Assembly: GCA_035268685.1 (NCBI GenBank)
Contig: DATFKK010000142.1
Coordinates: 1 to 39,148, forward strand
Length of the DNA: 39,148 bases
Source: Candidatus Krumholzibacteriia bacterium
GTDB taxonomy: Bacteria > Krumholzibacteriota > Krumholzibacteriia > JAJRXK01
Direction of reading: 5' to 3'
Made by a program: the position numbers and the translations under genes. The notes under the pieces are model-generated. The model did no database searches and was not told where the DNA came from. It was given only the letters and a program-made list of their open reading frames with translations. The first letter of the stretch is position 1; each line of letters opens with the position of its first letter. Of the stretch, positions 17,374 to 31,527 are shown one piece after another.

Positions 17374-20300
17374 TCAGAAGTTCAGGGTGGCCTCGAAGAA
17401 CAGCCCCACCCGGGTGGTCGAGATGTCGGTCTGCGTGACCGTGTCGCGCGAGAAGTCGAACTGCAGCGACGCCCTCAGGTTCCGGCTGAACTGATAGCTG
17501 AACTGCGGCGAAATGCCGAACGAACGGCGCCCCTGTTCCTGGTCGCGCTCGATCAGCGTCTCGCCCGGGACCGACGGATTCGGGCGCTCGATCTCGCGGT
17601 AGGAACTCCGGGTCGAGAAGTTGGCATTGATCGTCATGTCGATGGTCGTGCCCGTTCCCTCCTGGCCGAAGCGCAGGAACGACAGGGCGCCCGTGGCGTC
17701 GAAGTTCTGCCGGACCGTCAGGTTGAACCGCAGGTTGTTCGAGAAGTTCTTCGCCTGCAGCGAACTCGACTCGTCGGTCCCGTAGGTGACGTTCAGGTTG
17801 GCGTCGAGCCCGTTCTCCAGACCCACGTTCCAACGCGGCGAGATTGTCCGCGAGATCCGCGGCGGCAACGGCGACGAGAGCGGGGCGTTGGGCCGGGTCT
17901 CGGTCTTCTTGTACGAGAAGTCCATGTTGCTCGACTGGAAGGGGTCGCCGATGGCGTCCCAGATCCCCCACTCGTGCACCCGCTGCACCCGGATGTTGTA
18001 GCTCGGCCACTCGACACTGCTGTTCGCGGTCGTGCCGGCCGGTCCGTCGCGTTCGCTCTCGGTGCGGCGGTAGCTCGCATCGACGTTGATGGTGCGGCTC
18101 AACTTGCTCTGCACGCTGAGGTTGACGGTTCGATTGGTCCGGCGGCTGCTGCTCTGGAAATCCTCGCGGATCAGGACCTTCTGGCCGGGCACGGTCACCG
18201 AGTCGATGGTCGAGGGCACTCCCGTGATCGCCGTGAAGTCGGGCTCGTCGCGGAATCCCAGGCGATAGGCCAGGTCCGCGCGTCCACCGATCTGGTTGTA
18301 GCTCGACGTCCGCTGTTGCTGCCATGTCGCATTGATGGGCCGGAGGTTCTCGTACAGGCTCACGAAGGGCAGCCGGATCTTCTTGAACAGGTCCAGGTAG
18401 TCCAGCCGGAGCAGCAGCGGAGGCTGATCGACCGCGGTGGTGTCGGCTGCCGCGACGGCCGTGGTGTCGGCGGCGGCAGCGGTGGACGTCGTGTCGCCGC
18501 TCGCGGTCGTCGGGCGGCCGGGTCGAACGGGCGGCGCCTGGCCGTCCCCCTGGTCCGCTGCAGGGTCGTCCGTCCGGTCCGGTGCCCGGTCCCGATTCGG
18601 GGCGACGTTGTACGGGCTCGCCGCCCGGTCGTCCCCCCCGTCCTGATCTTCGTCGTCTCCGGTGGGGACGAGACCGCCGAGCCACCCACCGACCGTCTTC
18701 ACGGGCCCTCCCACCGTACTCAGCAGGCGCTTCAGGTCGAGGTCGCCGCGCACGTTCCAATCGGCGCTGTTGCTCACGTTCCGCACCTCGCCCGCACGGC
18801 CGATCTTGCCGTCGCCTTCCGGGACGAGCAGCGGCTCGTCCTGCTCACGCGAGGTGGCGTTCAACCGGATGCTCTCGCGCCGGTTCTCGTTGTAGCGGCC
18901 GTTGAACCCGATGGTGGGACGCGCCCACTGCAACCACCGGAACTCGGGCTTGTACTGCAGACTCAGGTTCTGGCTGAAGGTCTCCTCGGCCCCGAAGTCG
19001 ATGCCGAGGAAGGTGAAGCCGCGATCGAGCAGCTGGTTGCGCCCGGAGTTGAGGACCAGACTCCCGGTGAGGCTCTGCAAGGGGGCCAGCGTCATCTGCA
19101 TCTGATTGGTGTTGCGCTTGACGATGTTCGGGGTCTGCTCGATCACCTCGTCACTCTGTAGCGACTTCTGCAGCGATCTCGTCTCGCTGAACTGCCAGTT
19201 GCTGGTCACCGTGACCTGTCGCGGCAGGACCCCGAGCTCGATCCCGGTGAACGGGATCGGCAGCGCCGGCGCCCGGCGGAGCTGCAGGTCGTAGCTGTAG
19301 CGCTGGTCCGCCGACTTCGTCCGGGTCTCGCGGGTGGGGCTGAAGGTCTCCGAACGCGTGCCGTTGATCGTGTAGTTGAAGCGATCGAGGGTGTACTGGA
19401 GGATCGGGTTGTCGCTCGGTCGGGGTTTGCGGAACTGCAGGCTGAACCGTTCGGTGGTCGACTCGGTACGGAAGCTGTCCTGTTCGGCCTCGGGCAGTTC
19501 GCGGTCGCTCAACGGCTCGAACTTGGGCAGCTCCAGGCTGTTCTGCCGTTGCACCGAGATGGGGATGTCGAGACCGAAGGTCGGGATCCAGTTGCGGACG
19601 TTGCTACTCAGTCGGGCGTTCCACCGCGTCGAGTTCACACCCGAGCCGAAGTCCCGGTTCAGGCCCCGGAACTCCGCGTCGGTGCGTTGGTAGTCGACCT
19701 GCAGATCGGCCACGCCGGGGATCTGGGCGTTGACCGAGTAGCGCTGGGCCAGACCGACCTCCCGGTTCACGCCGCGCAGGCGCAGCTCGTTGAACAGGAC
19801 CTCGCCCCGGTAGGACACGAGCGACGCGTCCGAGGGCGCACGCAGGCCGACGTAGAACCGTTTGACGCGTTGCAGATCGGGCCGGCCGCGCAGCGTCACC
19901 GTGTACGGCACACCGGTCCGGGTGTCGCGCACGACGGTCCGCTTCACGAGCGGGTTCTCACGCGTGGAGTCGACGACCGCCGGATCGAACAGAGGCACCC
20001 GCGCGTCGTCGGGCACGCCCTTCACCGAGGTCAGGTCCTCGATCGCCACGCTGACCTCCACCCAGTCGCCGTCGATCAACGCACTCCGCGGCACGTCGCG
20101 GAAGGGGAAGGAGATCTCGTAGTAGTTCACGGAATCCGTCCCCACCCAGTAGAAGGCCTCGAGGTCCTCCTGCGCAGGATCGAGCTCGAAGACCGATTCG
20201 TCGTCGGGGGCCGGGGCGTAGGGAAGCCTCCAGAAGAAGTTCATCTCGTCGTAGTTCAGGTAGTTCTCGCCGTTGCGCCCCGGGATCTCACGGAAAGCGC

Positions 20301-23300
20301 GGAACCCGAAGCCCCGATCGAGGGTGTAGGTGAGCTGCAAGGACTGCTCGAGCTCGTCCTGGTTGTTGCGCCGCACGACTTCGATCGGTGGCACGTAGGT
20401 GCCCGCGTTGTCCTTGTTGTTCAGCACGCCCAGCCGGAAGTCCTGCTGACCTCGTTCGGCCGGCTCGACGATGTCGCCGTAGGGACCGCGGACCTGATCC
20501 CCGATCCAGCGGTTGCCCAGGAAACGCATGTCGGCGAAGCGGAAGCGACGGGTGTTGGGCTCGTCGGCCTCGGCATCGGGCTCGTACCAGATGCGCAACG
20601 TGCGCACGCGCGACAGATCGGGCTGACGTCCGAAGTAGGGTGTCGTGTCGCCCTCGTCCTCCTGGCCCCGGATCAGGGTGATCGCCTCGCGCAGGTCGAG
20701 ACGGTAGCGACGCCAGGTCCGACGGTCCTCGAGTGCGTCCTCGATGAAGCCGGTCAGGCCGGGCAAGGGCTGGAACTGGTTGTCGGTGAAGTCGCGGTAG
20801 ATGTCGACGATCGCATTCGAGGGATCGTCGAGGTCGACACTCACCCGGAAGAAGCCGTCCTCCAGATTGAAACTACCGTCGCGATCGATGTCCTCGGTGT
20901 CGAGGCGCTGGTTGCCCTCGGTTCCGTTGACGAAGACGAATTCGCCGCGCTCGGCCCGTGCAGCGTCGTCGTCGCCGAGCTTGAAGTTGTCGCCCGCGGG
21001 ATCCCCGCGCTGGGACGGACGACCCTCGACCGGACGCAGCTCGGCCGACTCCTCGGAATCGAGCAGGCCGTCGAGTCCGCGATCCTCGGTCTGGCCGTCG
21101 TCGGCCACGATCCCCAGCACCCCGTCGTTGTCCTCGTCCTCCCGGTCCTCCACGCCCAGCAGGAACGAACCGTCCTGACCCCTGCCCCAGAAGAAGTCCT
21201 CGTTGATGTACCCGAAATCGAAGTGCAGGGTCCCCGAGCGCGACGACTGGAAGGCCTCGAGTGCGCTGCCGAAGCCCGGCGGATTCGTTTCGCGGCCTTC
21301 GAAGATCTGGGCGTCGCCGGCTTCGACCCAGAACTCCAGGAACTGGGCCTGCGTGAGATCGATCTCGCCGAGCGAGCGCATGATCCCGGCGTACTCGCCC
21401 TCCTGCCAGCCGCCGACCTCGTCGGGGTCGGTGGTCGTGCTGGAATCGGCGCGGACGATCATCTCCAGCGTCGGCAGCAGATCGTTCTGCTCGAGCTCGG
21501 TCAGCGTGGGGTTGATCTGACCCTGGACCAGGCTTCCTCCGGATGCCGGACGGTGCCATCCCGCGTAGGCGCGATCCTCGGGTCCGAAGGCCTGCCGCGC
21601 CATCTCGTTGCCGGGGTCCTCGCGCAGATCGGGCCCGCGCACGGGCAGGCTCGCCCACCACCAACCCTCGCGGTTCAACGAGATCTGCACCGTCTGATCG
21701 ACCTGCTCGAAGTCCTCGAGGTAGGCAATGTCACGCGTGTTCGGATTCGGAACGCTGATCGCGACCTCGGCGTTGAGGTCGAAGCTCGGGGTCCGGTCGA
21801 CGTCCTGACGACTGATCATGTCGGCGACGTCGCGCAACCACTCGGGCTCGATGCGCGTCTTGGTGTTCAGGTTGCCCACGAGGTTGCGCTTCGGCTCCTC
21901 GCCCAGGCGGACCTTGGTCTGCGCGTTCGGGCGCGTCTGGTAGAGCCAGGTCGTGCTGAGCTGGGAACGACGGCCGAAGTCGATCCCGAGGTTCAGACCG
22001 CTCAGGCTGGTGCGCCCTCCCCCGAACAGGGGGTTCTGTTCGTAGCGCACCTGGATGTTGCTCTGGGCGTTCAGCTCGGCCAGGGCGTCGCCCTTCAGGT
22101 TCACCTCGCCGCTGAAGTAGTCGATGTCGTAGTCGGTCCCGCGGGTCAACACCCGTCCGTTCAGGATGACCTCTTCGCTCCCCTCGCGGATGTTGAAGGC
22201 GTTCAACCGAAGATTGCTGCTCACACCCGACTGCCGCACCACGATGTTGAAGCGGTGCAGGTCGATGCGCTCCTGGGGCGTGTTCACGACCGTGCGATAC
22301 AGCCCCGGCACGCGCAGGTCGTCGTCGAGCCCGTCGACCCCGCCGTTCGTGAAGTCCTGCACGACCTCGTCGGGCATGTCGAAGGGCCGCGAGAAGGGGA
22401 ACTGCAGGATGCCGCGCGACAGGTTGAACAGGCCGGTGTCGTTGATGTCGACCTGTTCGTCGGGCTGGTTCTGGCCCGAGGCGTTGCGGCGGTCGAGTCC
22501 GAAGACCTGGATCCAGCGTGTGCCCGTGGTGGGATCGCGTTCCGGGAATTCCAGCGAGTTGTCGTCGCGTTCGATCTGCAGCTCGAAGGTCTGGGGATCG
22601 ATGTCCCGGCCGCGCAGGTCGTAGAAGTTGCGGAACTCGTATTCCCAGGTGAGGGCGAGGGAAGTGAAGCTCCCGTCGTCACGGACCGGATCGTCGGGGG
22701 TGCGCGGTTTCAGCAGTTTGAAGAAGTGGACGCTCGGCACGTCGGCCGTGGTCTCGTTGATCAGGTCGCCGAGATCGTTGGCGTCGCCGTCGAGATTCAG
22801 ATTGGGTAGCTGCCCGGCCGTGGGATCGTTGATCGACCGGCCCACCCGGCGCACCAGCGATCCGTTCTCGTCGACGATGTCGTAGGAGACGGCCAGGACC
22901 TCGTTGTCGGTGTAGGCGCGGGCCATCTCGATCCCGATCACCTGTTCGGTCCCGAGCTGGGTCAGGGGGAACCAGTCGCCCCGTCCGCCGAGGTCGCCCG
23001 CATCCCCTCGCACCAGACGCCGCCAACGGGTTCCCGTCTGCAGCCGTCCGGTGCGGCCGTAGGTCTCGATGACGTAGGCGGCCAGCTCCTCGTCGGTCGC
23101 CTGTGGGTCCAGGCCGGGCGGGCCGACCCCGGTGCCGGCGCCGAAGCCCTCCCACCCCAGACCGGAGTCGTCGAGCACGGCGATCCCGTGGTCGACCGTG
23201 TTCTCGTCCGAGGCTCCGCTGCGGGCCAGTGTGTAGACGTCGATCGACTCGGGATCGATCCGCCAGCGGGCGTCGGGGATCCCGAACTGCTGCAGGTCGG

Positions 23301-24567
23301 CCCCGCTGCCGTCCAGCGGGAAGTCGGGCCGGTCGGGGAAGTAGAGCGGGAAGGGGGCGGTCAGTCGGAAGAACCGGCCACGGGAGTAGTCGACGTCGCT
23401 GATGACGATCTCTTCCTCTTCGCGGCTGCCACCGGACTGGCTGAAGGTCCGGCTCTCCTGCGTCGCCTCCTCCTTGCTCGTGAGCACGGTGTAATCGACC
23501 GGCCCCACGGCCCCCGTGAGCTTCAGGCCGAACAGGCCACCGCGGCTCGCCCCCACGCCGAGCAGTCCCGAGCCCGGCAGCGTGACGTCGATGTTCCCCG
23601 CGCGGATCGTCTGGATGATGTCGTCCTCGTCGCCCTCGAAACTCAGCCGGATCTCCGTGGACTCCGAACCGACGCGCTGGCTGTCGTGACTCACGCGGAC
23701 CTTGATCTTCTCGCCCACCTGACCGTCGAGATTCACTCGCAGTGACTGCTCCAACTCCAACTGGGGAAACAAGCTCTGGCTCTGTTGGATCTCGTTCCCG
23801 ATGAAGTCGTCGCGCACGGTCGACTGCCCGCCGATCCGGATGCGTTCGGTCCCCGAGATCCGGATGCTGGTGGCCTCGCCCTTGCCGATGATCCGCTCGA
23901 TCGTGCGCGGAATGTTGAGGGGCAGCGTGAAGTTCAGCAGTTCCCCCTGGGATTCCCCGGCGGCCGCGCGGTTGCGCACCTGCTCGCTCCACTGGTCCTG
24001 TAGCGCCCGGCTGGCGGCCACACGCAGATGGGCGTCGAACCGATCCACGTCGACGTCGAGATCGGAGCGCGAGAAGTCCCGCTGCGACCGGAAGGCGACG
24101 CCGACGGCGTTGGTGTCGACCACGGCGCTGAACAGGGCCCTCTCGGGGATCTCGACCCGGGCGGCGATCTCCTGGTCGAAATCGTAGATCCACTCGGTCC
24201 GGGTCCTCTCCGCGTCGAAGGGGTCCCACTCGTTGCGTTCGGCCGAGCGCGCCAGGAACAGGGTCGCCAGCGAGGGCGTTGCACCGCCGGGCCGGACACC
24301 GAGACGCCGCCAGTGCTCCCGCAGGACGGCCTGCCGCGCCGTGAGCAGATCGGCGTCCTCGACGTTGCGGACGATCAGATCGAAGAGGAGGCGATCCTGT
24401 GGAAGCAGAGGGCGCCGCAGTGGGGCCCCGTCGGCGGGCTCGACGGTGGATGCGAGGAAGGCGAGCGCGACCGCGAGGAACGCCGCGGCGATCCCCGTCG
24501 GCAGCGTCGGGATGCCGCCCTGGCGCCCGGACCGACCGGGCGAATGTCCCCGTCTGGAGACGGCCAC
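17374..24567 (-). CDS. sprA: SprA/Sov-like giant outer-membrane protein (type IX secretion translocon homologue)
   Basis: About 2,397 residues, in the size range of Bacteroidota SprA, the outer-membrane channel of type IX secretion. The signal segment is hydrophobic 25-39 with a cleavage-like ADGA at 45-48. Then comes the family block LLNFTLPLNIPRTIERIIGK, RISGTERIRIGGQSTVRDDF and VNLDGQVGEKIKVRVSHDSQ, typical of SprA N-terminal regions. Long Asp-rich beta segments repeat through the middle, and the protein ends FFEATLNF, with the terminal Phe usual for outer-membrane barrels. Residues about 1,960-2,050 are a low-complexity Asp/Ala/Pro/Thr insert. Start: the frame is open further upstream to 24762, but GTG 24567 has GGGAGG just before it and leaves room for divergent promoters with lptF. 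Function as a translocon here is inferred from homology. Confidence 0.8.
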   Translation of the reverse strand: MAVSRRGHSPGRSGRQGGIPTLPTGIAAAFLAVALAFLASTVEPADGAPLRRPLLPQDRLLFDLIVRNVEDADLLTARQAVLREHWRRLGVRPGGATPSLATLFLARSAERNEWDPFDAERTRTEWIYDFDQEIAARVEIPERALFSAVVDTNAVGVAFRSQRDFSRSDLDVDVDRFDAHLRVAASRALQDQWSEQVRNRAAAGESQGELLNFTLPLNIPRTIERIIGKGEATSIRISGTERIRIGGQSTVRDDFIGNEIQQSQSLFPQLELEQSLRVNLDGQVGEKIKVRVSHDSQRVGSESTEIRLSFEGDEDDIIQTIRAGNIDVTLPGSGLLGVGASRGGLFGLKLTGAVGPVDYTVLTSKEEATQESRTFSQSGGSREEEEIVISDVDYSRGRFFRLTAPFPLYFPDRPDFPLDGSGADLQQFGIPDARWRIDPESIDVYTLARSGASDENTVDHGIAVLDDSGLGWEGFGAGTGVGPPGLDPQATDEELAAYVIETYGRTGRLQTGTRWRRLVRGDAGDLGGRGDWFPLTQLGTEQVIGIEMARAYTDNEVLAVSYDIVDENGSLVRRVGRSINDPTAGQLPNLNLDGDANDLGDLINETTADVPSVHFFKLLKPRTPDDPVRDDGSFTSLALTWEYEFRNFYDLRGRDIDPQTFELQIERDDNSLEFPERDPTTGTRWIQVFGLDRRNASGQNQPDEQVDINDTGLFNLSRGILQFPFSRPFDMPDEVVQDFTNGGVDGLDDDLRVPGLYRTVVNTPQERIDLHRFNIVVRQSGVSSNLRLNAFNIREGSEEVILNGRVLTRGTDYDIDYFSGEVNLKGDALAELNAQSNIQVRYEQNPLFGGGRTSLSGLNLGIDFGRRSQLSTTWLYQTRPNAQTKVRLGEEPKRNLVGNLNTKTRIEPEWLRDVADMISRQDVDRTPSFDLNAEVAISVPNPNTRDIAYLEDFEQVDQTVQISLNREGWWWASLPVRGPDLREDPGNEMARQAFGPEDRAYAGWHRPASGGSLVQGQINPTLTELEQNDLLPTLEMIVRADSSTTTDPDEVGGWQEGEYAGIMRSLGEIDLTQAQFLEFWVEAGDAQIFEGRETNPPGFGSALEAFQSSRSGTLHFDFGYINEDFFWGRGQDGSFLLGVEDREDEDNDGVLGIVADDGQTEDRGLDGLLDSEESAELRPVEGRPSQRGDPAGDNFKLGDDDAARAERGEFVFVNGTEGNQRLDTEDIDRDGSFNLEDGFFRVSVDLDDPSNAIVDIYRDFTDNQFQPLPGLTGFIEDALEDRRTWRRYRLDLREAITLIRGQEDEGDTTPYFGRQPDLSRVRTLRIWYEPDAEADEPNTRRFRFADMRFLGNRWIGDQVRGPYGDIVEPAERGQQDFRLGVLNNKDNAGTYVPPIEVVRRNNQDELEQSLQLTYTLDRGFGFRAFREIPGRNGENYLNYDEMNFFWRLPYAPAPDDESVFELDPAQEDLEAFYWVGTDSVNYYEISFPFRDVPRSALIDGDWVEVSVAIEDLTSVKGVPDDARVPLFDPAVVDSTRENPLVKRTVVRDTRTGVPYTVTLRGRPDLQRVKRFYVGLRAPSDASLVSYRGEVLFNELRLRGVNREVGLAQRYSVNAQIPGVADLQVDYQRTDAEFRGLNRDFGSGVNSTRWNARLSSNVRNWIPTFGLDIPISVQRQNSLELPKFEPLSDRELPEAEQDSFRTESTTERFSLQFRKPRPSDNPILQYTLDRFNYTINGTRSETFSPTRETRTKSADQRYSYDLQLRRAPALPIPFTGIELGVLPRQVTVTSNWQFSETRSLQKSLQSDEVIEQTPNIVKRNTNQMQMTLAPLQSLTGSLVLNSGRNQLLDRGFTFLGIDFGAEETFSQNLSLQYKPEFRWLQWARPTIGFNGRYNENRRESIRLNATSREQDEPLLVPEGDGKIGRAGEVRNVSNSADWNVRGDLDLKRLLSTVGGPVKTVGGWLGGLVPTGDDEDQDGGDDRAASPYNVAPNRDRAPDRTDDPAADQGDGQAPPVRPGRPTTASGDTTSTAAAADTTAVAAADTTAVDQPPLLLRLDYLDLFKKIRLPFVSLYENLRPINATWQQQRTSSYNQIGGRADLAYRLGFRDEPDFTAITGVPSTIDSVTVPGQKVLIREDFQSSSRRTNRTVNLSVQSKLSRTINVDASYRRTESERDGPAGTTANSSVEWPSYNIRVQRVHEWGIWDAIGDPFQSSNMDFSYKKTETRPNAPLSSPLPPRISRTISPRWNVGLENGLDANLNVTYGTDESSSLQAKNFSNNLRFNLTVRQNFDATGALSFLRFGQEGTGTTIDMTINANFSTRSSYREIERPNPSVPGETLIERDQEQGRRSFGISPQFSYQFSRNLRASLQFDFSRDTVTQTDISTTRVGLFFEATLNF

Positions 24568-24663
24568 CGACCCCTCCCGTGGTCGAACCCCACCCTTTCC
24601 GGGTGGGCCGACGACCGACCGGAGCGCGGGTGGATGGTCTCTACCTGGCGGCGGGGCGCCTGC

Positions 24664-24692
24664 TTGTGCACCGGACCGGCCGCCCCTATGCT
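24664..24692 (+). promoter_or_regulatory. Candidate promoter for lptF-lptG
   Basis: TTGTGC (24664-24669), a 17-bp spacer and TATGCT (24687-24692, four of six -10 matches), in the 184-bp divergent gap between the sprA-like gene and lptF. I see no equally good promoter for the sprA-like gene on the other strand. Confidence 0.4.
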
Positions 24693-24751
24693 GCGCGAGC
24701 CGTCGAAGGAACGAACGACGTGCCTGCCCCGCCAACTGCGCGAAACGAGCC

Positions 24752-26119
24752 ATGAAGCTCATCGATCGTCATCTGCTGGCCACGTTCGTCCCGCCGTTCC
24801 TCTTCGGGCTGTCGATCACGACCTTCCTGCTGATGATCAACGTCCTCCAGGTGTACATCAATCTGTTCCTGGAGAAGGGCATCTCGATCGTGACGGCGAG
24901 CGAGGTCCTCGTTCTCAGCCTGGGGCACACGATTGCATTGACCGTGCCCATGGCGACGCTCATCGGCGTGCTGATGGCCGTGGGGCACCTGGCGGGCGAC
25001 CACGAGGTGACCGCCCTGAAGGCCTGCGGGGTGGGTCTGTACCGTCTCGCGCGGCCGCTGCTGGTCACCGGCGTGGTCCTGACCGCGGGCATGATCGCCT
25101 ACAACCACTACGTGCTGCCCGACGGCAATCACCGGCTGCGCAACACCCTGTTCGAGATCCAGCAGATGCGGCCGACGCTCGAGATCCGGCCGAACACCTT
25201 CGCCGAGATCAGCGATCGCTACACCATCTTCGTGCGCTTCAAGGACGATCAGACCGGCGAGCTGCAGGACGTGGTGCTGTACCAGCGGGAGGGCCGCGGA
25301 GACCTCGCACCCGACGTGGTCGTCGCCGACCACGGTCGCCTGAAGACCCTGGGTCCCTCGCGCATCCGACTGGAACTCTTCGACGGCGAGATCCACCGCG
25401 TGCCCGATCCCGAGAATCCCTCCACCTACAATCGCACACGCTTCACGCGGCAGACCTTCATGCTGGTCCTCGAACGCGAAGAGACCCGTGTCCGCCGGGG
25501 CAACCGTCGCGGCGACCGCGAGATGGACCTGAACATGCTCGCCGCCGCCATCGCCGAGCAGGAGTCGCTCGCGGTGCAGAAGTCGGAGTCGGCGCAGAAA
25601 CACCTGCGCGACGTGATCGACAAGGCCTACCTGGAGCGCGATCCGGACACCGCCCCCGAGCTCGGGGCCACCCGCACCGCGCTGGACGAATACACCCAGT
25701 GGCAGAGCCTGACCTCGTCGCGACAGCGCTCGCTGTCGCTGAACGCACAGACCCGCCAGGATCATCGGACCCGGGCCGGCAAGTACGCGGTCGAGTGGCA
25801 CAAGAAGTTCTCCATACCCGTGGCTTGCGTCGTCTTCGTGGTCCTGGGCATTCCCCTGGCGGTGGTGAGCGCGCGCGGCGGGCGCGGCGTGTCGGTGGGA
25901 CTGAGCCTGCTCGGGTTCATCGTCTACTACGTCTTCCTGTCCACCGGCGAGAAGATGGCCGATCGCGGGCGGGTGGACGCCTGGATCGCCATGTGGAGTC
26001 CGAACCTCGTCCTGGGCGTCGTGGGCGTCTTCCTGCTGCACCGCGCGGTGCAGGAGAACCCCACGGTGGAACTGCGGTGGCCGTCGTGGCTGCCGTCGCT
26101 GCGGAAGCGGTCGTCATGA
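24752..26119 (+). CDS. lptF: LptF-family permease subunit of the LPS export ABC transporter
   Basis: 455 residues. With LptG and the ATPase LptB, LptF extracts lipopolysaccharide from the inner membrane and passes it to the periplasmic bridge. Visible: MKLIDRHLLATFVPPFLFGL (N-terminal amphipathic helix and first membrane segment), two more N-terminal membrane segments around LVLSLGHTIALTVPMATLIG and ARPLLVTGVVLTAG, a long periplasmic beta-jellyroll domain, and three C-terminal segments starting WHKKFSIPVACVVFVVLG. A charged insert of about 100 residues (VRRGNRRGDREMDLN to RTRAGKYAVE) makes it longer than the proteobacterial form. The ATG start was chosen by homology; its ribosome binding site is weak. 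Its stop overlaps lptG (ATGA). Confidence 0.9.
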   Translation: MKLIDRHLLATFVPPFLFGLSITTFLLMINVLQVYINLFLEKGISIVTASEVLVLSLGHTIALTVPMATLIGVLMAVGHLAGDHEVTALKACGVGLYRLARPLLVTGVVLTAGMIAYNHYVLPDGNHRLRNTLFEIQQMRPTLEIRPNTFAEISDRYTIFVRFKDDQTGELQDVVLYQREGRGDLAPDVVVADHGRLKTLGPSRIRLELFDGEIHRVPDPENPSTYNRTRFTRQTFMLVLEREETRVRRGNRRGDREMDLNMLAAAIAEQESLAVQKSESAQKHLRDVIDKAYLERDPDTAPELGATRTALDEYTQWQSLTSSRQRSLSLNAQTRQDHRTRAGKYAVEWHKKFSIPVACVVFVVLGIPLAVVSARGGRGVSVGLSLLGFIVYYVFLSTGEKMADRGRVDAWIAMWSPNLVLGVVGVFLLHRAVQENPTVELRWPSWLPSLRKRSS

Positions 26120-27195
26120 CGCTGATCGACCGGTACGTCCTGAGCACCTTCGTCCGCGTCTTCCTGTGGTCGGTCCTGGCCTTCCTGGCCGTGTTCATCC
26201 TCATGGACCTGATCGACCACATCGACGACTTCGTCGACGACGAAGCCACCCTGCTCGAGATCGGGCGCTACTACTTCTTCCGACTGCCCTACCTGATCGA
26301 TTTCGTCACCCCGATCAGCATGCTGATGGCGTCGATGTTCACGGTGGGCATCCTGAGCAAGAATCGCGAGTACGCGTCGATGCTCGCCGCCGGGGTGAGC
26401 CTGCTCCGCCTGAGCCGCACGCTGCTGGTGCTGGGCGTGCTGGTGACGATCGCGGCGATCGGCTGGCGCGAGTACGTGGTCGCAGCCGCGAACCACCGGC
26501 ACTACGACGTGCGCGACTACGAGATCGAGGAGAAGGAGCGCCACAACCTCAAGGGCCGCAGTGACTTCACCCATGTCGACGCATGGGGGCGCGTGTACGT
26601 CGTCCACCGCTTCCGGACACGTCCCCCCACGCTGGACCGGCTCTCGGTGCAGACCTTCACCGATTCCACGCTGGTCGAGCGGATCGACGCCCGGCGGGCC
26701 CTCTGGCAGGAGAACCACTGGGAGCTGCGCGACGGTTCGATCCGCCGCTTCGCCCCCGACGGCACCGAGTCGATCGAGCGATTCACCTCGCGCCGGCTCG
26801 AGGGGCCGGTCGAGAAACCCAGCGAGCTGTCGCGGCGCCGGATCAAGCACGAGGAAATGAACTGGAGGCAGTTGCGGGACTTCGCGAACTGGGTCGATCG
26901 CACGGGCGGGGATTCCACGCAGTATCGGGCCGAGATGGCCCACAAGATCAGCTTTCCCGTGATCAACCTGCTCGTCGTGATCCTGGGCCTCGCCATCGGA
27001 GCCGCGAGGCGCCGGACCAATCTCTGGGCCGGTTTCGGCCTGACTGTCGCCCTGGCCTTCGGCTACTACCTGATGATGGACTTCGGCCTCGAGCTCGGCC
27101 GGGGCGGGAAGGTGCCGATCTGGGCCTCGGCCTGGACCGGGAACATCGTCTACGCAGTGACCGGAACGTGGCTGTTCGTGCGAGCCAACCGATGA
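26116..27195 (+). CDS. lptG: LptG-family permease subunit of the LPS export ABC transporter
   Basis: 359 residues, the usual length. It is the partner permease of LptF in the LptB2FG complex. The N-terminus MTLIDRYVLSTFVRVFLWSV is the family start, followed by membrane segments around FLAVFILMDLIDHI and LLVLGVLVTIAAIGW, a periplasmic domain, and C-terminal segments starting ISFPVINLLVVILGLAIGA and WAGFGLTVALAFGYYL. The short helix YRLPYLIDFVTPISML-like part (RLPYLIDFVTPISMLMASMF) is the coupling-helix region that contacts LptB. The start overlaps the lptF stop in ATGA, so translation is coupled. The family also carries the name YjgQ. Confidence 0.92.
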   Translation: MTLIDRYVLSTFVRVFLWSVLAFLAVFILMDLIDHIDDFVDDEATLLEIGRYYFFRLPYLIDFVTPISMLMASMFTVGILSKNREYASMLAAGVSLLRLSRTLLVLGVLVTIAAIGWREYVVAAANHRHYDVRDYEIEEKERHNLKGRSDFTHVDAWGRVYVVHRFRTRPPTLDRLSVQTFTDSTLVERIDARRALWQENHWELRDGSIRRFAPDGTESIERFTSRRLEGPVEKPSELSRRRIKHEEMNWRQLRDFANWVDRTGGDSTQYRAEMAHKISFPVINLLVVILGLAIGAARRRTNLWAGFGLTVALAFGYYLMMDFGLELGRGGKVPIWASAWTGNIVYAVTGTWLFVRANR

Positions 27196-27399: not shown

Positions 27400-30252
27400 A
27401 TGATCCGCTGCTCTCGTCGCGGGGCCGACCTCGCACGGTCGCTCCTGTTCGTCGCCCTCGTGCTGCCCCTGCCCTTCCTGGGCACCGGCTGTGAAGAGGA
27501 CACCAAGCCCTACATCACGAAATTGTCGGCCAACCCGCTGTGCGGGGCCATGACCGTGCAGGAACCCGACTCGACCCTGGGGCTGGAGGTCTCGTTCTTC
27601 GCACGGGCCAGCAGCGGCAACCGCTTCGACGATCCCACGGGCGCCAACTCGGCGCTCGACTGGTTCTGGGACTTCGACGGCGACGGACGGGTCGACGCCG
27701 AGAACGTGGTCGAACCCCGTTTCGTGTACGACCGCGTGGGTGACTACGAGGCCAGCCTGACGGTGCAGGACGACGACGGCGACACCGACACCCGCACCCT
27801 CCTGGTGCAGGTCCGCGGTCGGTCGAACGAGCTCGACATCCTCGACTTCGAGGCCGAGGTCCGCACCGGGTTGCGCTTCGACGAGAGCCTGCCGGAGAAC
27901 ACGGGGCTCGATCCCGAGGGCGAAGAGCGTCCGATCGAGGTGATTCCCCTCCGCGATCGCGTCGTGCTGTCGACCCAGCCCGAGTTCGAGGGATGGCAGG
28001 CGACCTTCGACGGAATCCTGCGTCCGACCTGCGAGATCACCGACATCTTCGCCCAGTACGACTGGGAGTGGGGCTTCGACACCGGAGATGTACGACCCGA
28101 CCAGAACCCGGTCACCCTGAGCTTCGACGTCGACCAACGCGGTGACGTCTCGGGGGTCGTGAGCGTCACCGAGGTCGTCACCGGAGTCCGCAGGACCGAC
28201 ACCATCACGAGCACGCTGCCGGTGGGCGGTGCGCTCACCAACCCCGTCTTCGCCTACGTCGCGCCCGGGGCGCCCGATTCGATCGACGTACGGGGCTACT
28301 ACCTCGACGGCGCGAACGAGGTCTCGGTCCGGATCGAGTACGATCCCGGCCTGACCCTCGACCGCGTCGAGCTGAACAGCCCGCTGATCGACCAGGGCTT
28401 CTCGGGCACCAGCGAGACCGAGGAGAACTTCGTCGACATCCGCTTCGAGTCCGACACGGCCCTGGACGATCCGTCCGCCGAGATCCAGATCGCCCGGCTC
28501 TACTTCACCAACGCCCCCGACACGCTCTCGGTCCCGCAGATCCGACCGATCCGCCTGCGCGAGTTCACGGCCGTGCGCGACACCACCGTCGCCCCGACCA
28601 GCACGCGCGACGCCTTCCTGGTGCACGACGTCGCCGACTGCAACGGCAACCGTCTGGGCGACACCATGGAACTCCTGGCCCGCGAGAGCTTCGTCGACCG
28701 TTCCGGCGACGGCGTTCTCGACTATTGCGCCGACTGCAACGACAACGGCAGGAAGGACGGCGCCGAGATCGCTGACGAAGCCACCGTCGACATCGACATC
28801 AACGGCATCCCCGACGAGTGCGACTGCAACAGCGACGGTGAGTACGACGAGCTGCAGCTCGCGAGTGGCGACGTCGACGACGAAGACCAGAACAATCTGC
28901 CCGACGACTGCGACTGCGACTGGAACGGCGTCGCCGACCTGGTCGAGATCCGCCAGGACCCGAGCTTCGAGCTCGTCCTCTGGCGGAACCTGCCGCAGGA
29001 CCAGCAGGATCTCGTGACCGTGCCGCACAACGAGGCCTTCGGCTACACCAGCGATCTCGACCAGTTCGCCGGAGAATCGAACGGCGTGCTCGACTTCTGC
29101 GAGGACTGCGACGACAACGGCGTGCTCGACTTCCTGCAGTACACGGTGGGCCTCCCCCCCGAAGACGGCGGCTTCGATCCCGACCGCCGTCGGGTCGACG
29201 TCGACGCCAACGGCGTCCTCGACGAGTGCGACTGCAACGGCAACGGACGCTTCGACCGCGGAGAGATCGAGCGTGGCTTCGTCACCGCCAGCGACGGCGA
29301 GCTGATCGACGACTGCGACTGCAACGACAACCAGACCGCCGATCTGGTCGACATCGGCGACGCGATCACCGAGGTCGAGAACCGCGACGGGACCATCGTC
29401 TACACCAGCACCCTCGACGCGAACCGTGACCAGGTCATCGACGCCTGCGCCGACTGCAACGAGAACGGCACGCCCGACGGTGACGACTTCGCCGCGGGCG
29501 GCCCGCTGCTCGACGTCGATTCGAACGGGCTGCTCGACGAGTGCGATTGCAACAGCGACGAGATCTACGATCCGCCGCTCGACCCGACCACGAACGATCT
29601 CGACCAGAACGGTGTGTTCGACCTCTGCGACTGCGATCGCAACGCCGTTCCCGACCTCGACCAGATCGCCGACGCGATCACCGACTTCACCGTCGGCCCC
29701 GACGGCCGCCTCGCCTCGTACGTGAGCGAGGAGGACCAGATCACCCTGATCGACTTCAACGAAGAGGACAGCGGCGACTTCATCCCCTTGGAGCTCGAGG
29801 CCGGGCCCGACCAGATCCCTGATCTGTGCCAGGACTGCAACGCGAACGGTGTTCCCGATCGCAACGAGACCTTCGAGGACATCGAGAACCTCGGTCCGAA
29901 CCGCTCCGACCTCGACCGTGACGGCCTGCTCGACGAGTGCGACTGCAACCTCAACGGCGACTTCGACGTGGTGGAGATCACGCTCGATCCCGCGCTCGAC
30001 GGCGACGGTGACGAAGTCATCGACGACTGCGACTGCAACGAGAACGGTCGCCTGGACATCGTCGAGATCCAGGAGTTCGCGATCTTCGACCAGGCCACCG
30101 GGATCTACCTCCGAGCGGAGGGAACCAACGACCTCGGTCAGGACATCATCGACGCCAACGGCAACGGCGTGCTCGACCAGTGCGAGGAACAGGCGGCGGC
30201 CGATCAGCTGCTGGCTCCGATCAACGGACGGGTCGTCGGCTCGGATCGCTAG
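27400..30252 (+). CDS. Secreted, probably lipid-anchored protein with PKD domain and Cys/Asp calcium-loop repeats
   Basis: 950 residues, very acidic. The N-terminus (MIRCSRRGADLARSLLFVAL, then PFLGTGC) is a signal peptide ending in a weak lipobox, Gly-Thr-Gly-Cys. A PKD-like domain follows (about 60-145; WFWDFDGDGRVD, FVYDRVGDYEASLTVQD). Next is a beta-rich region with VRIEYDPGLTLDRVELNS, reminiscent of cohesin-type domains. From residue about 410 to the end are 13 units built on C-x(0-1)-D-C-[ND]-x-[ND]-G-x-x-D, like calcium loops of thrombospondin type 3 or dockerin repeats. They form four super-repeats of 116-127 residues (Cys at 443, 567, 683, 810 and 928). ATG 27400 has GGGAG 9 nt upstream, so I prefer it to the open frame upstream. 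A surface or extracellular calcium-stabilised structural protein is inferred; function unknown. Confidence 0.8.
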   Translation: MIRCSRRGADLARSLLFVALVLPLPFLGTGCEEDTKPYITKLSANPLCGAMTVQEPDSTLGLEVSFFARASSGNRFDDPTGANSALDWFWDFDGDGRVDAENVVEPRFVYDRVGDYEASLTVQDDDGDTDTRTLLVQVRGRSNELDILDFEAEVRTGLRFDESLPENTGLDPEGEERPIEVIPLRDRVVLSTQPEFEGWQATFDGILRPTCEITDIFAQYDWEWGFDTGDVRPDQNPVTLSFDVDQRGDVSGVVSVTEVVTGVRRTDTITSTLPVGGALTNPVFAYVAPGAPDSIDVRGYYLDGANEVSVRIEYDPGLTLDRVELNSPLIDQGFSGTSETEENFVDIRFESDTALDDPSAEIQIARLYFTNAPDTLSVPQIRPIRLREFTAVRDTTVAPTSTRDAFLVHDVADCNGNRLGDTMELLARESFVDRSGDGVLDYCADCNDNGRKDGAEIADEATVDIDINGIPDECDCNSDGEYDELQLASGDVDDEDQNNLPDDCDCDWNGVADLVEIRQDPSFELVLWRNLPQDQQDLVTVPHNEAFGYTSDLDQFAGESNGVLDFCEDCDDNGVLDFLQYTVGLPPEDGGFDPDRRRVDVDANGVLDECDCNGNGRFDRGEIERGFVTASDGELIDDCDCNDNQTADLVDIGDAITEVENRDGTIVYTSTLDANRDQVIDACADCNENGTPDGDDFAAGGPLLDVDSNGLLDECDCNSDEIYDPPLDPTTNDLDQNGVFDLCDCDRNAVPDLDQIADAITDFTVGPDGRLASYVSEEDQITLIDFNEEDSGDFIPLELEAGPDQIPDLCQDCNANGVPDRNETFEDIENLGPNRSDLDRDGLLDECDCNLNGDFDVVEITLDPALDGDGDEVIDDCDCNENGRLDIVEIQEFAIFDQATGIYLRAEGTNDLGQDIIDANGNGVLDQCEEQAAADQLLAPINGRVVGSDR
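28726..30183 (+). repeat. Four coding super-repeats of about 350-380 bp, each of three calcium-loop units
   Basis: Each super-repeat begins with a C-x-D-C unit (tgc at 28726, 29098, 29446, 29827), followed by a short C-D-C unit and a long C-D-C unit. The next C-x-D-C equivalent (30181) begins the truncated end. Period lengths are 124, 116, 127 and 118 codons. Confidence 0.75.
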
Positions 30253-30351: not shown

Positions 30352-31527
30352 TCAGAGGCCCAGGTACTGCTTCACGTCGTCGACGCGATCGAGGCGCTCC
30401 CACGTGAAGGCGTCGTCGCTACCCGGCCGGCCGAAGTGACCGTAGGCCGCGGTGCGCCGGTACATCGGGCGCTTGAGGTCCAGCGAAGTGATGATCCCGT
30501 TCGGCGTCAGCTTCCAGAGCTCCCGGACACAGGCCTCGATCTTCTCCTCGTCGGCCCGGGCCGTCCCGAAGCTCTCGACGCGCACCGACACCGGCTCGGC
30601 CACGCCGATGGCGTAGGCCAGCTGTACCTCGATGCGGTCGGCGGCGCCGGCGGCCACGAGGTTCTTGGCCACGTGGCGCGCCGCGTAGCAAGCGGAGCGA
30701 TCGACCTTGCTCGGGTCCTTGCCGCTGAAGGCGCCCCCACCGTGGCGGCCCATGCCCCCGTAGGTGTCGACGATGATCTTGCGCCCGGTCAGCCCGGCAT
30801 CGGCCTGGGGACCGCCCAGCACGAAGCGGCCGGTCGGGTTCACATGGATCCGCGTGGTGTCCATGGAGTACTCGAGGCCACTGTCGTCGAGAACGGGTCG
30901 GACCACGGCCGCCACCATGTCCTCGCGGATGCGATCGAGCTTGGCGGCCTCATCGTGCTGGGTCGAGAGCACCACGGTGTGGCAACGAACGGCCCGCTCG
31001 CCATCGTACTCGACGGTCACCTGGGTCTTGCCGTCCGGGCGCAGGTAGGGATGACGGCCATCCTTGCGGACCTCCGCCAGACGCTGCGACATGCGGTGCG
31101 CCAGGTGGATCGGCATGGGCATGTACGCATCGGTCTCGGTGGTCGCGTAGCCGAACATCATGCCCTGGTCGCCGGCGCCCTGCTCCTCGGGGCTCTCGCG
31201 ATCGACGCCCTGGGCGATGTCGCCGCTCTGCTCGTCGATCGAGGTCATGACGGCGCAGGTCTCGTAGTCGAAGCCGTAGGAGGCGTCCGTGTAGCCGATC
31301 GCCTTGATGGTGCCGCGCACGAGCTTCGGAATGTCCACGTAGGTGTTGGTGGAGATCTCACCGGCGAGCAGCGCCAGGCCCGTGGTCACCATCGTCTCGC
31401 AGGCCACGCGCCCGTTCGGGTCGGCCTCGAGGATCGCATCGACCACGGTGTCGGAGATCGCGTCCGCGACCTTGTCGGGGTGACCCTCGGTCACCGATTC
31501 CGACGTGAACAACTGCTTCTCGGACAT
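30352..31527 (-). CDS. metK: S-adenosylmethionine synthase
   Basis: 391 residues, full length. It makes SAM from methionine and ATP in the cytoplasm. Landmarks: [14 protein letters not shown] (ATP-binding His and Asp), [13 protein letters not shown] (the family signature hexapeptide region), [20 protein letters not shown], and [17 protein letters not shown] (the phosphate-binding loop). ATG has GGAGG at 31537-31541, 9 nt upstream. The gene has its own promoter (31630-31658) and a structured leader of about 96 nt. The neighbouring isomerase gene lies 155 bp upstream, so metK is probably a separate transcription unit. Confidence 0.98.

Follow-up and report, generated by a model that had tools for sequence, protein, structure and literature searches.

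Analysis of the window (the whole 39,148-nucleotide stretch of DNA) revealed a gene for a 950-aa predicted lipoprotein whose C-terminal array of putative calcium loops follows the cysteine order CxDC-CDC-CDC four times, with zero exceptions across residues 413-928. The array probably serves as the lipid-anchored, calcium- and disulfide-stabilised C-terminal stalk of an envelope lipoprotein, for which we infer a stalk or display role, a rod shape, and a surface location. The chances appear about even that its building block, a pair of loops termed b and a, represents a calcium-binding repeat family of its own, undescribed so far and widespread among diderm bacteria, with a staggered disulfide ladder. 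The window protein would then be the most elaborate form seen here, with 13 rungs, a nested 3-6-12 organisation, and long linkers between bonded loops. The features of the gene and its neighbours are located as follows.

27400-30252, + strand: whole gene, encoding a 950-aa lipoprotein that comprises two PKD domains, a cohesin-like domain, and the calcium-loop array (open reading frame and translation; the ATG at 27400 agrees with the orthologs)
27400-27492, + strand: putative signal peptide with a lipobox and lipidated Cys31 (ortholog conservation; predicted helix at residues 6-21)
27511-27813, + strand: PKD domain 1 (Pfam PF18911, phmmer, and Foldseek)
27982-28215, + strand: second PKD-like domain (aligned to ortholog stretches; Pfam calls two PKD domains there)
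28240-28587, + strand: cohesin-like beta-sandwich (pLDDT and Foldseek)
28636-30183, + strand: calcium-loop array of 13 b-a loop pairs, with 26 cysteines and 26 loops (motif and cysteine anatomy)
28636-28686, + strand: opening half unit b0 (DCNGNRLGD, Cys414, without the position-11 cysteine)
28687-29058, + strand: higher-order copy 1 (CADC, CDC, CDC)
29059-29406, + strand: higher-order copy 2 (CEDC, CDC, CDC)
29407-29787, + strand: higher-order copy 3 (CADC, CDC, CDC)
29788-30183, + strand: higher-order copy 4 (CQDC, CDC, CDC), ending in the closing half unit a13 (DANGNGVLDQC, Cys928)
24028-27195, + strand: upstream neighbour, an open reading frame ending in an LptF/LptG permease (Pfam PF03739, E=1.5e-74)
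30352-31527, - strand: downstream neighbour, S-adenosylmethionine synthetase, metK (Pfam)

Cys31 follows a hydrophobic segment and was invariant in all 16 orthologs compared, several of which carry a canonical LLTGC-type lipobox. The signal peptide and the lipobox cysteine together indicate that the 950-aa protein is probably a lipoprotein. PKD domain 1 matched Pfam PF18911 (E=5e-8; 33.3 bits, cutoff 27), was matched by phmmer to PKD domains from known proteases, and gave Foldseek TM-scores of up to 0.78 of the target. In the full-length predicted model, this domain and residues about 284-393 were confident, and the second PKD-like domain was modelled with low confidence in the window protein. 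Residues about 284-393 form a beta-sandwich (pLDDT about 80-95 across residues 290-370), and several cohesin modules were among its matches in a whole-model Foldseek search (probability 1.0, E 2e-3 to 1e-2); a Pfam search of this domain returned no match. Two further cysteines, Cys48 (27541-27543) and Cys211 (28030-28032), lie in the two PKD regions and were likewise invariant in 16/16 aligned lipoprotein orthologs; they possibly form an interdomain disulfide.

The first-pass annotation divided the array into thirteen calcium-loop-like units. The motifs do resemble calcium loops; however, each such unit is really a junction between two loops, in which CxDC or CDC couples the end of an a loop to the start of the following b loop. 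The better building block is a b loop, a linker, and an a loop, so defined that the array reads b0-a1, b1-a2 ... b12-a13 and contains exactly 13 complete pairs. Loop b has the form DC[ND]xNGxxD with a cysteine at position 2, and loop a the form DxDxNGxxDxC with a cysteine at position 11. The loop pattern with its first Asp was found in 23 of the 26 loops; the remaining three, all a loops (ending at Cys567, Cys639, and Cys810), are degenerate, and because they lack the first Asp some loop sites may not bind calcium. DxDxDG motifs are an established calcium-binding context, thrombospondin included (PMC3123361), and loops of this form in the array are predicted to bind calcium. The boundaries of the array also had to be redrawn in part: the order of its units stood, but it opens at 28636 with the lone C414 loop, earlier than the start at 28726 first given, and ends at 30183 with the lone C928 loop.

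The cycle of C-x-D-C, short C-D-C, and long C-D-C units claimed at the outset proved exact. Past residue 440, the 12 cysteine junctions read CADC, CDC, CDC, CEDC, CDC, CDC, CADC, CDC, CDC, CQDC, CDC, CDC. Only 3 of the 495 arrangements of four CxDC among twelve junctions are perfectly period-3, and the units are thus not randomly ordered. Motifs of the C(x)DC type were observed 12 times, against a mean of 1.6 and a maximum of 8 in 20,000 shuffles of the region. Loop sequences are more alike within than between the three junction classes (permutation p=0.0018), and the spacing to the next cysteine follows the class (A, 28/40/29/34; B, 28/27/26/28; C, 61/42/65/49; permutation p=0.00035). The CxDC positions (507, 631, 747, and 874 in ORF numbering) give periods of 124, 116, and 127 residues, as had been claimed (116-127).

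Column bootstraps grouped copy 1 with copy 3 and copy 2 with copy 4 in 93% of cases, which suggests, on modest evidence, that a duplication series of 3, 6, and then 12 junctions lies behind the array. The threefold order would thus go back to an internal duplication of a three-unit block, probably doubled twice. With units only about 57-60% identical at the nucleotide level, these duplications are old. The same divergence bears on neutral repeat growth, in which an acidic tail expands and decays with no fixed role. This explanation draws on the loss of the first Asp in the three degenerate a loops, on syntenic orthologs outside the genus that have no tail, and on a same-genus ortholog whose array is built differently. 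However, 26 of 26 cysteines and the pairing register have remained intact despite the low identity, suggesting selection, and we consider neutral growth unlikely.

The pairing register was derived from covariation among relatives. We termed the position-2 cysteine C1 and the position-11 cysteine C2; the loops of canonical relatives carry either, both, or neither. Among 54 distinct loop strings from arrays of other phyla, which are related and not statistically independent, C1 of loop i and C2 of loop i+1 covaried with phi 0.87. In contrast, C1 and C2 of the same loop gave phi -0.22 and junction neighbours (C2 of i and C1 of i+1) gave phi 0.12. The remaining offsets between -3 and +4 stayed at or below phi 0.26, and shuffles of the loop order within chains reached at most 0.30. 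Relatives from the same lineage gave phi 0.86 for C1(i) and C2(i+1). Every cysteine of the 13 b and 13 a loops in the window array fits this rule, down to the lone cysteine at either end, and the array of the same-genus ortholog (bFFFFFFFFFFFa) obeys the identical end rule. The simplest reading of these covariations is therefore a predicted staggered disulfide ladder, in which every b cysteine would pair with its counterpart in the a loop that follows.

The junction cysteines lie close together, as in CxC metal sites, and could instead bind a soft metal such as zinc or copper through the CDC and CxDC junctions, making the array a metal store or sensor. The covariation argues against such sites, since it joins successive loops and hardly the junction pair; the single cysteines at the two ends follow the staggered rule, and disulfides are to be expected in a protein that is probably exported. 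We regard a metal-binding role as very improbable. With the staggered ladder, the covariation would yield a specific disulfide map for the whole repeat group from sequence alone. It would also define a bacterial counterpart to thrombospondin-like calcium stalks and give a simple rule by which to locate array ends and recognise insertions of domains between bonded loops. At locus L057, for example, a first array ends in an unpaired b loop; an NHL-type insertion follows, and the array after it starts from an unpaired C2. It is as if a whole domain were insertable between bonded loops in the metalloproteases, of which the 42-65 residue spacings after every third junction in the window would be smaller cases.

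The AlphaFold model of the array (39 rows) had a mean pLDDT of 63.7, a low to medium confidence, and the array fell below pLDDT 50 in the full-length model. The array model showed short helices after the b loops, with pLDDT 75-87 for most of residues 20-110 of the modelled piece; because model confidence was low, the array fold was not used as evidence beyond these helices. A Foldseek search of the array model against the PDB found no match, and a PDB search found no convincing homolog of solved structure. The earlier proposal of a disulfide-linked calcium rod was borne out in one respect, as the regular cysteines are best explained by disulfides on the covariation evidence, whereas a rod shape is only putative, given the mean pLDDT and the failure of the model to match any solved structure.

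In the stalk reading, lipidated Cys31 would anchor the protein and be followed by the two PKD domains, the cohesin-like domain, and the thirteen b-a units. Both loop types, being of the DxDxDG form, would hold calcium, and each b cysteine would bond the next a-loop cysteine across the linker, closing 13 staggered disulfides. Together, loop calcium and disulfides could stiffen a chain that is otherwise highly acidic (net charge -124), and the long linker past every third junction could act as a periodic protrusion or hinge. Counting against a stalk, no neighbouring gene requires one.

The array could alternatively be a docking module whose loop pairs, being dockerin-like, bind cohesin-like domains of the same or neighbouring molecules in self-assembly or enzyme carriage. 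As in dockerin type I (Dockerin_1, PF00404), an acidic loop is followed by a short helix, the predicted helix after loop b recalling the dockerin F-hand, and a cohesin-like fold stands before the array in the same protein. For freshwater Planctomycetes, a non-cellulosomal use of cohesin/dockerin pairs has been suggested, within a hypothetical complex that includes M12B peptidases along with thrombospondin type 3 repeats (PMC6461901). However, Dockerin_1 has two F-hands, far from the thirteen tandem cysteine-bearing pairs of the window array, which had no Pfam match to Dockerin_1 and an hhalign probability of only 0.6% against a true dockerin. Furthermore, Dockerin_1 and the loop-pair module are separate regions within a single relative, L082. 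Docking is therefore improbable in our judgement.

Thrombospondin type 3 repeats (TSP_3, PF02412) also consist of tandem DxDxDG-type calcium loops, and TSP1 has at least one disulfide between cysteines 20 residues apart in its type 3 region (C856-C876) (PMC6526912). Membership of the window array in TSP_3 was rejected, as a Pfam search of the window gave no TSP_3 match at E up to 10 and the DNCP motif occurred 0 times. Unlike in thrombospondin, no EGF or L-type lectin domain was found. TSP_3 was the nearest Pfam model; it matched 13 of 36 module relatives, weakly and mostly below the cutoff (best E=9e-6). In L082, which served as a positive control, Pfam marked TSP_3 and Dockerin_1 in separate regions and left the loop-pair module unmarked. 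In the stalk reading, the array would work like thrombospondin type 3 repeats without being a member by the tests run.

The architecture had been described as one without a named family. Pfam and NCBIfam indeed cover nothing in the array: searches of Pfam, NCBIfam, and PDB sequences recognised the PKD domain alone in this protein and gave, for the array, no fitting model and only chance-level or composition-driven matches, among them GRXCR1-2_C, EF-hand_10, and calcium sensors, which were dismissed as identities for the array. A literature search for the motif strings and the repeat found no description. The building block, however, is not peculiar to this protein, as the same loop pair occurs in Planctomycetota, Zixibacteria, GN15, and Myxococcota as well as in its own lineage. 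When the four higher-order copies were used as queries against 84,980 species genomes, 146 relatives were recovered, and the best 80 of these, which were inspected, are mostly from Planctomycetota and also from GN15, Zixibacteria, and Myxococcota. A 146-residue module, made up of four b-a pairs and one b loop with junction spacers of 1, 2, 2, and 1 residues, recurs in about forty of the best 80 (L057-L136, e.g., L057:2489-2926 and L082:4995-5429); the module member scanned is an M12B reprolysin-type metalloprotease with NHL repeats.

A profile built from Planctomycetota, Zixibacteria, and Myxococcota proteins only (alignment A4), with the window sequence left out, found the window array at E=1.1e-23 in a whole-genome search. 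In hhalign, the window-free module profile matched the window repeat with a probability of 99.7% (7e-26, 49% identity over 89 columns). Because a window-free profile detects the window array, the b-a loop pair is, at the level of sequence, widespread, and lineage specificity is limited to the zero-length CDC spacing and the threefold order. Planctomycetota and allied lineages commonly carry such repeats, yet none of the Pfam or NCBIfam models tested covers them, so the proteins look unannotated.

The DCNxNGxPDEC arrays of M12B-type metalloproteases in Planctomycetota, Zixibacteria, and Myxococcota, for which no database name was found, share with the window the b-linker-a unit, the position-2 b and position-11 a cysteines, and CxDC junctions (CEDC and CQDC), which are standard there. 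They differ in being limited to four pairs plus one b loop with 1,2,2,1 spacers and short uniform linkers, and they have no zero-spacer CDC junction, threefold order, or long linkers. Because 8 of its 12 junctions are zero-spacer CDC, outside the 1-2 residue spacers of the metalloprotease module, the window array was filed as a variant and not as the standard module. Relatives with canonical DCNGNGIPDECDIASGTS repeats, the same-genus ortholog among them, have the same loops and cysteine register as the window, and the gene and N-terminal domains of that ortholog are orthologous to those of the window. In these repeats, however, most loops carry both cysteines, the linker is a short DIAxGTS, and the array is near-uniform with no threefold order.

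When the threefold order was sought in related genomes, as the first-pass annotation had proposed, the loop pair was found to be widespread but the order occurred in the window gene only, among everything examined; it was absent from the other genomes of the relatives search and from the best 80 of the 146 loci in the 84,980-species collection. Zero-spacer CDC loop junctions were likewise seen solely in the window gene, among everything examined. L132 was considered as a second array with CDC junctions and rejected, the CDC motifs there being spacers and not loop junctions. It is a variant array (L132:1-1719) with extra cysteines (DCNRNCVDD ... DECDCNPHVDCNENC), with CDC in the spacer and a second cysteine in loop b. 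A second protein in the window's own genome (L055, G000:C56) has canonical DCDGNGxxDxC repeats followed by FG-GAP repeats. In a distant genome (G091:C1:3054388-3064482; L030, L044, L049, L052, and L054), a 5038-aa frame carries dozens of canonical DCNxNGxPDECDIxxGTS repeats between other domains.

The gene itself belongs to a conserved block. Other families of the class retain the order sprA - lptFG - lipoprotein - metK - PGI - PEP-utilising enzyme, and in the window a divergent SprA-like gene lies beyond lptFG. The syntenic orthologs elsewhere in the class are mostly PKD lipoproteins of about 220-280 aa with invariant Cys31, Cys48, and Cys211, and the calcium array was absent from those in other families. 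A same-family genome (G003) has a short two-PKD version of the lipoprotein, and in a same-genus genome (G001) a 647-aa open frame encodes the corresponding third domain and a canonical array. Because the short orthologs have no tail and G001 has a canonical array, these genomes indicate that the array was added at the lineage level to a lipoprotein that is itself old, and that the two species of the genus seen built it in different ways. In G001 (C49, L021), metK is missing from the otherwise conserved block, with PGI and the PEP-utilising enzyme still adjacent.

The divergent gene beyond lptFG (17374-24762, - strand) encodes a 2462-aa protein with a Pfam match to SprA_N (E=8.6e-7) and a weak C-terminal beta-barrel match, and this protein is a candidate SprA-like type IX secretion translocon. 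The SprA-like gene was present in 38 of the 38 genomes searched and stood beside lptFG and the lipoprotein in several of them.
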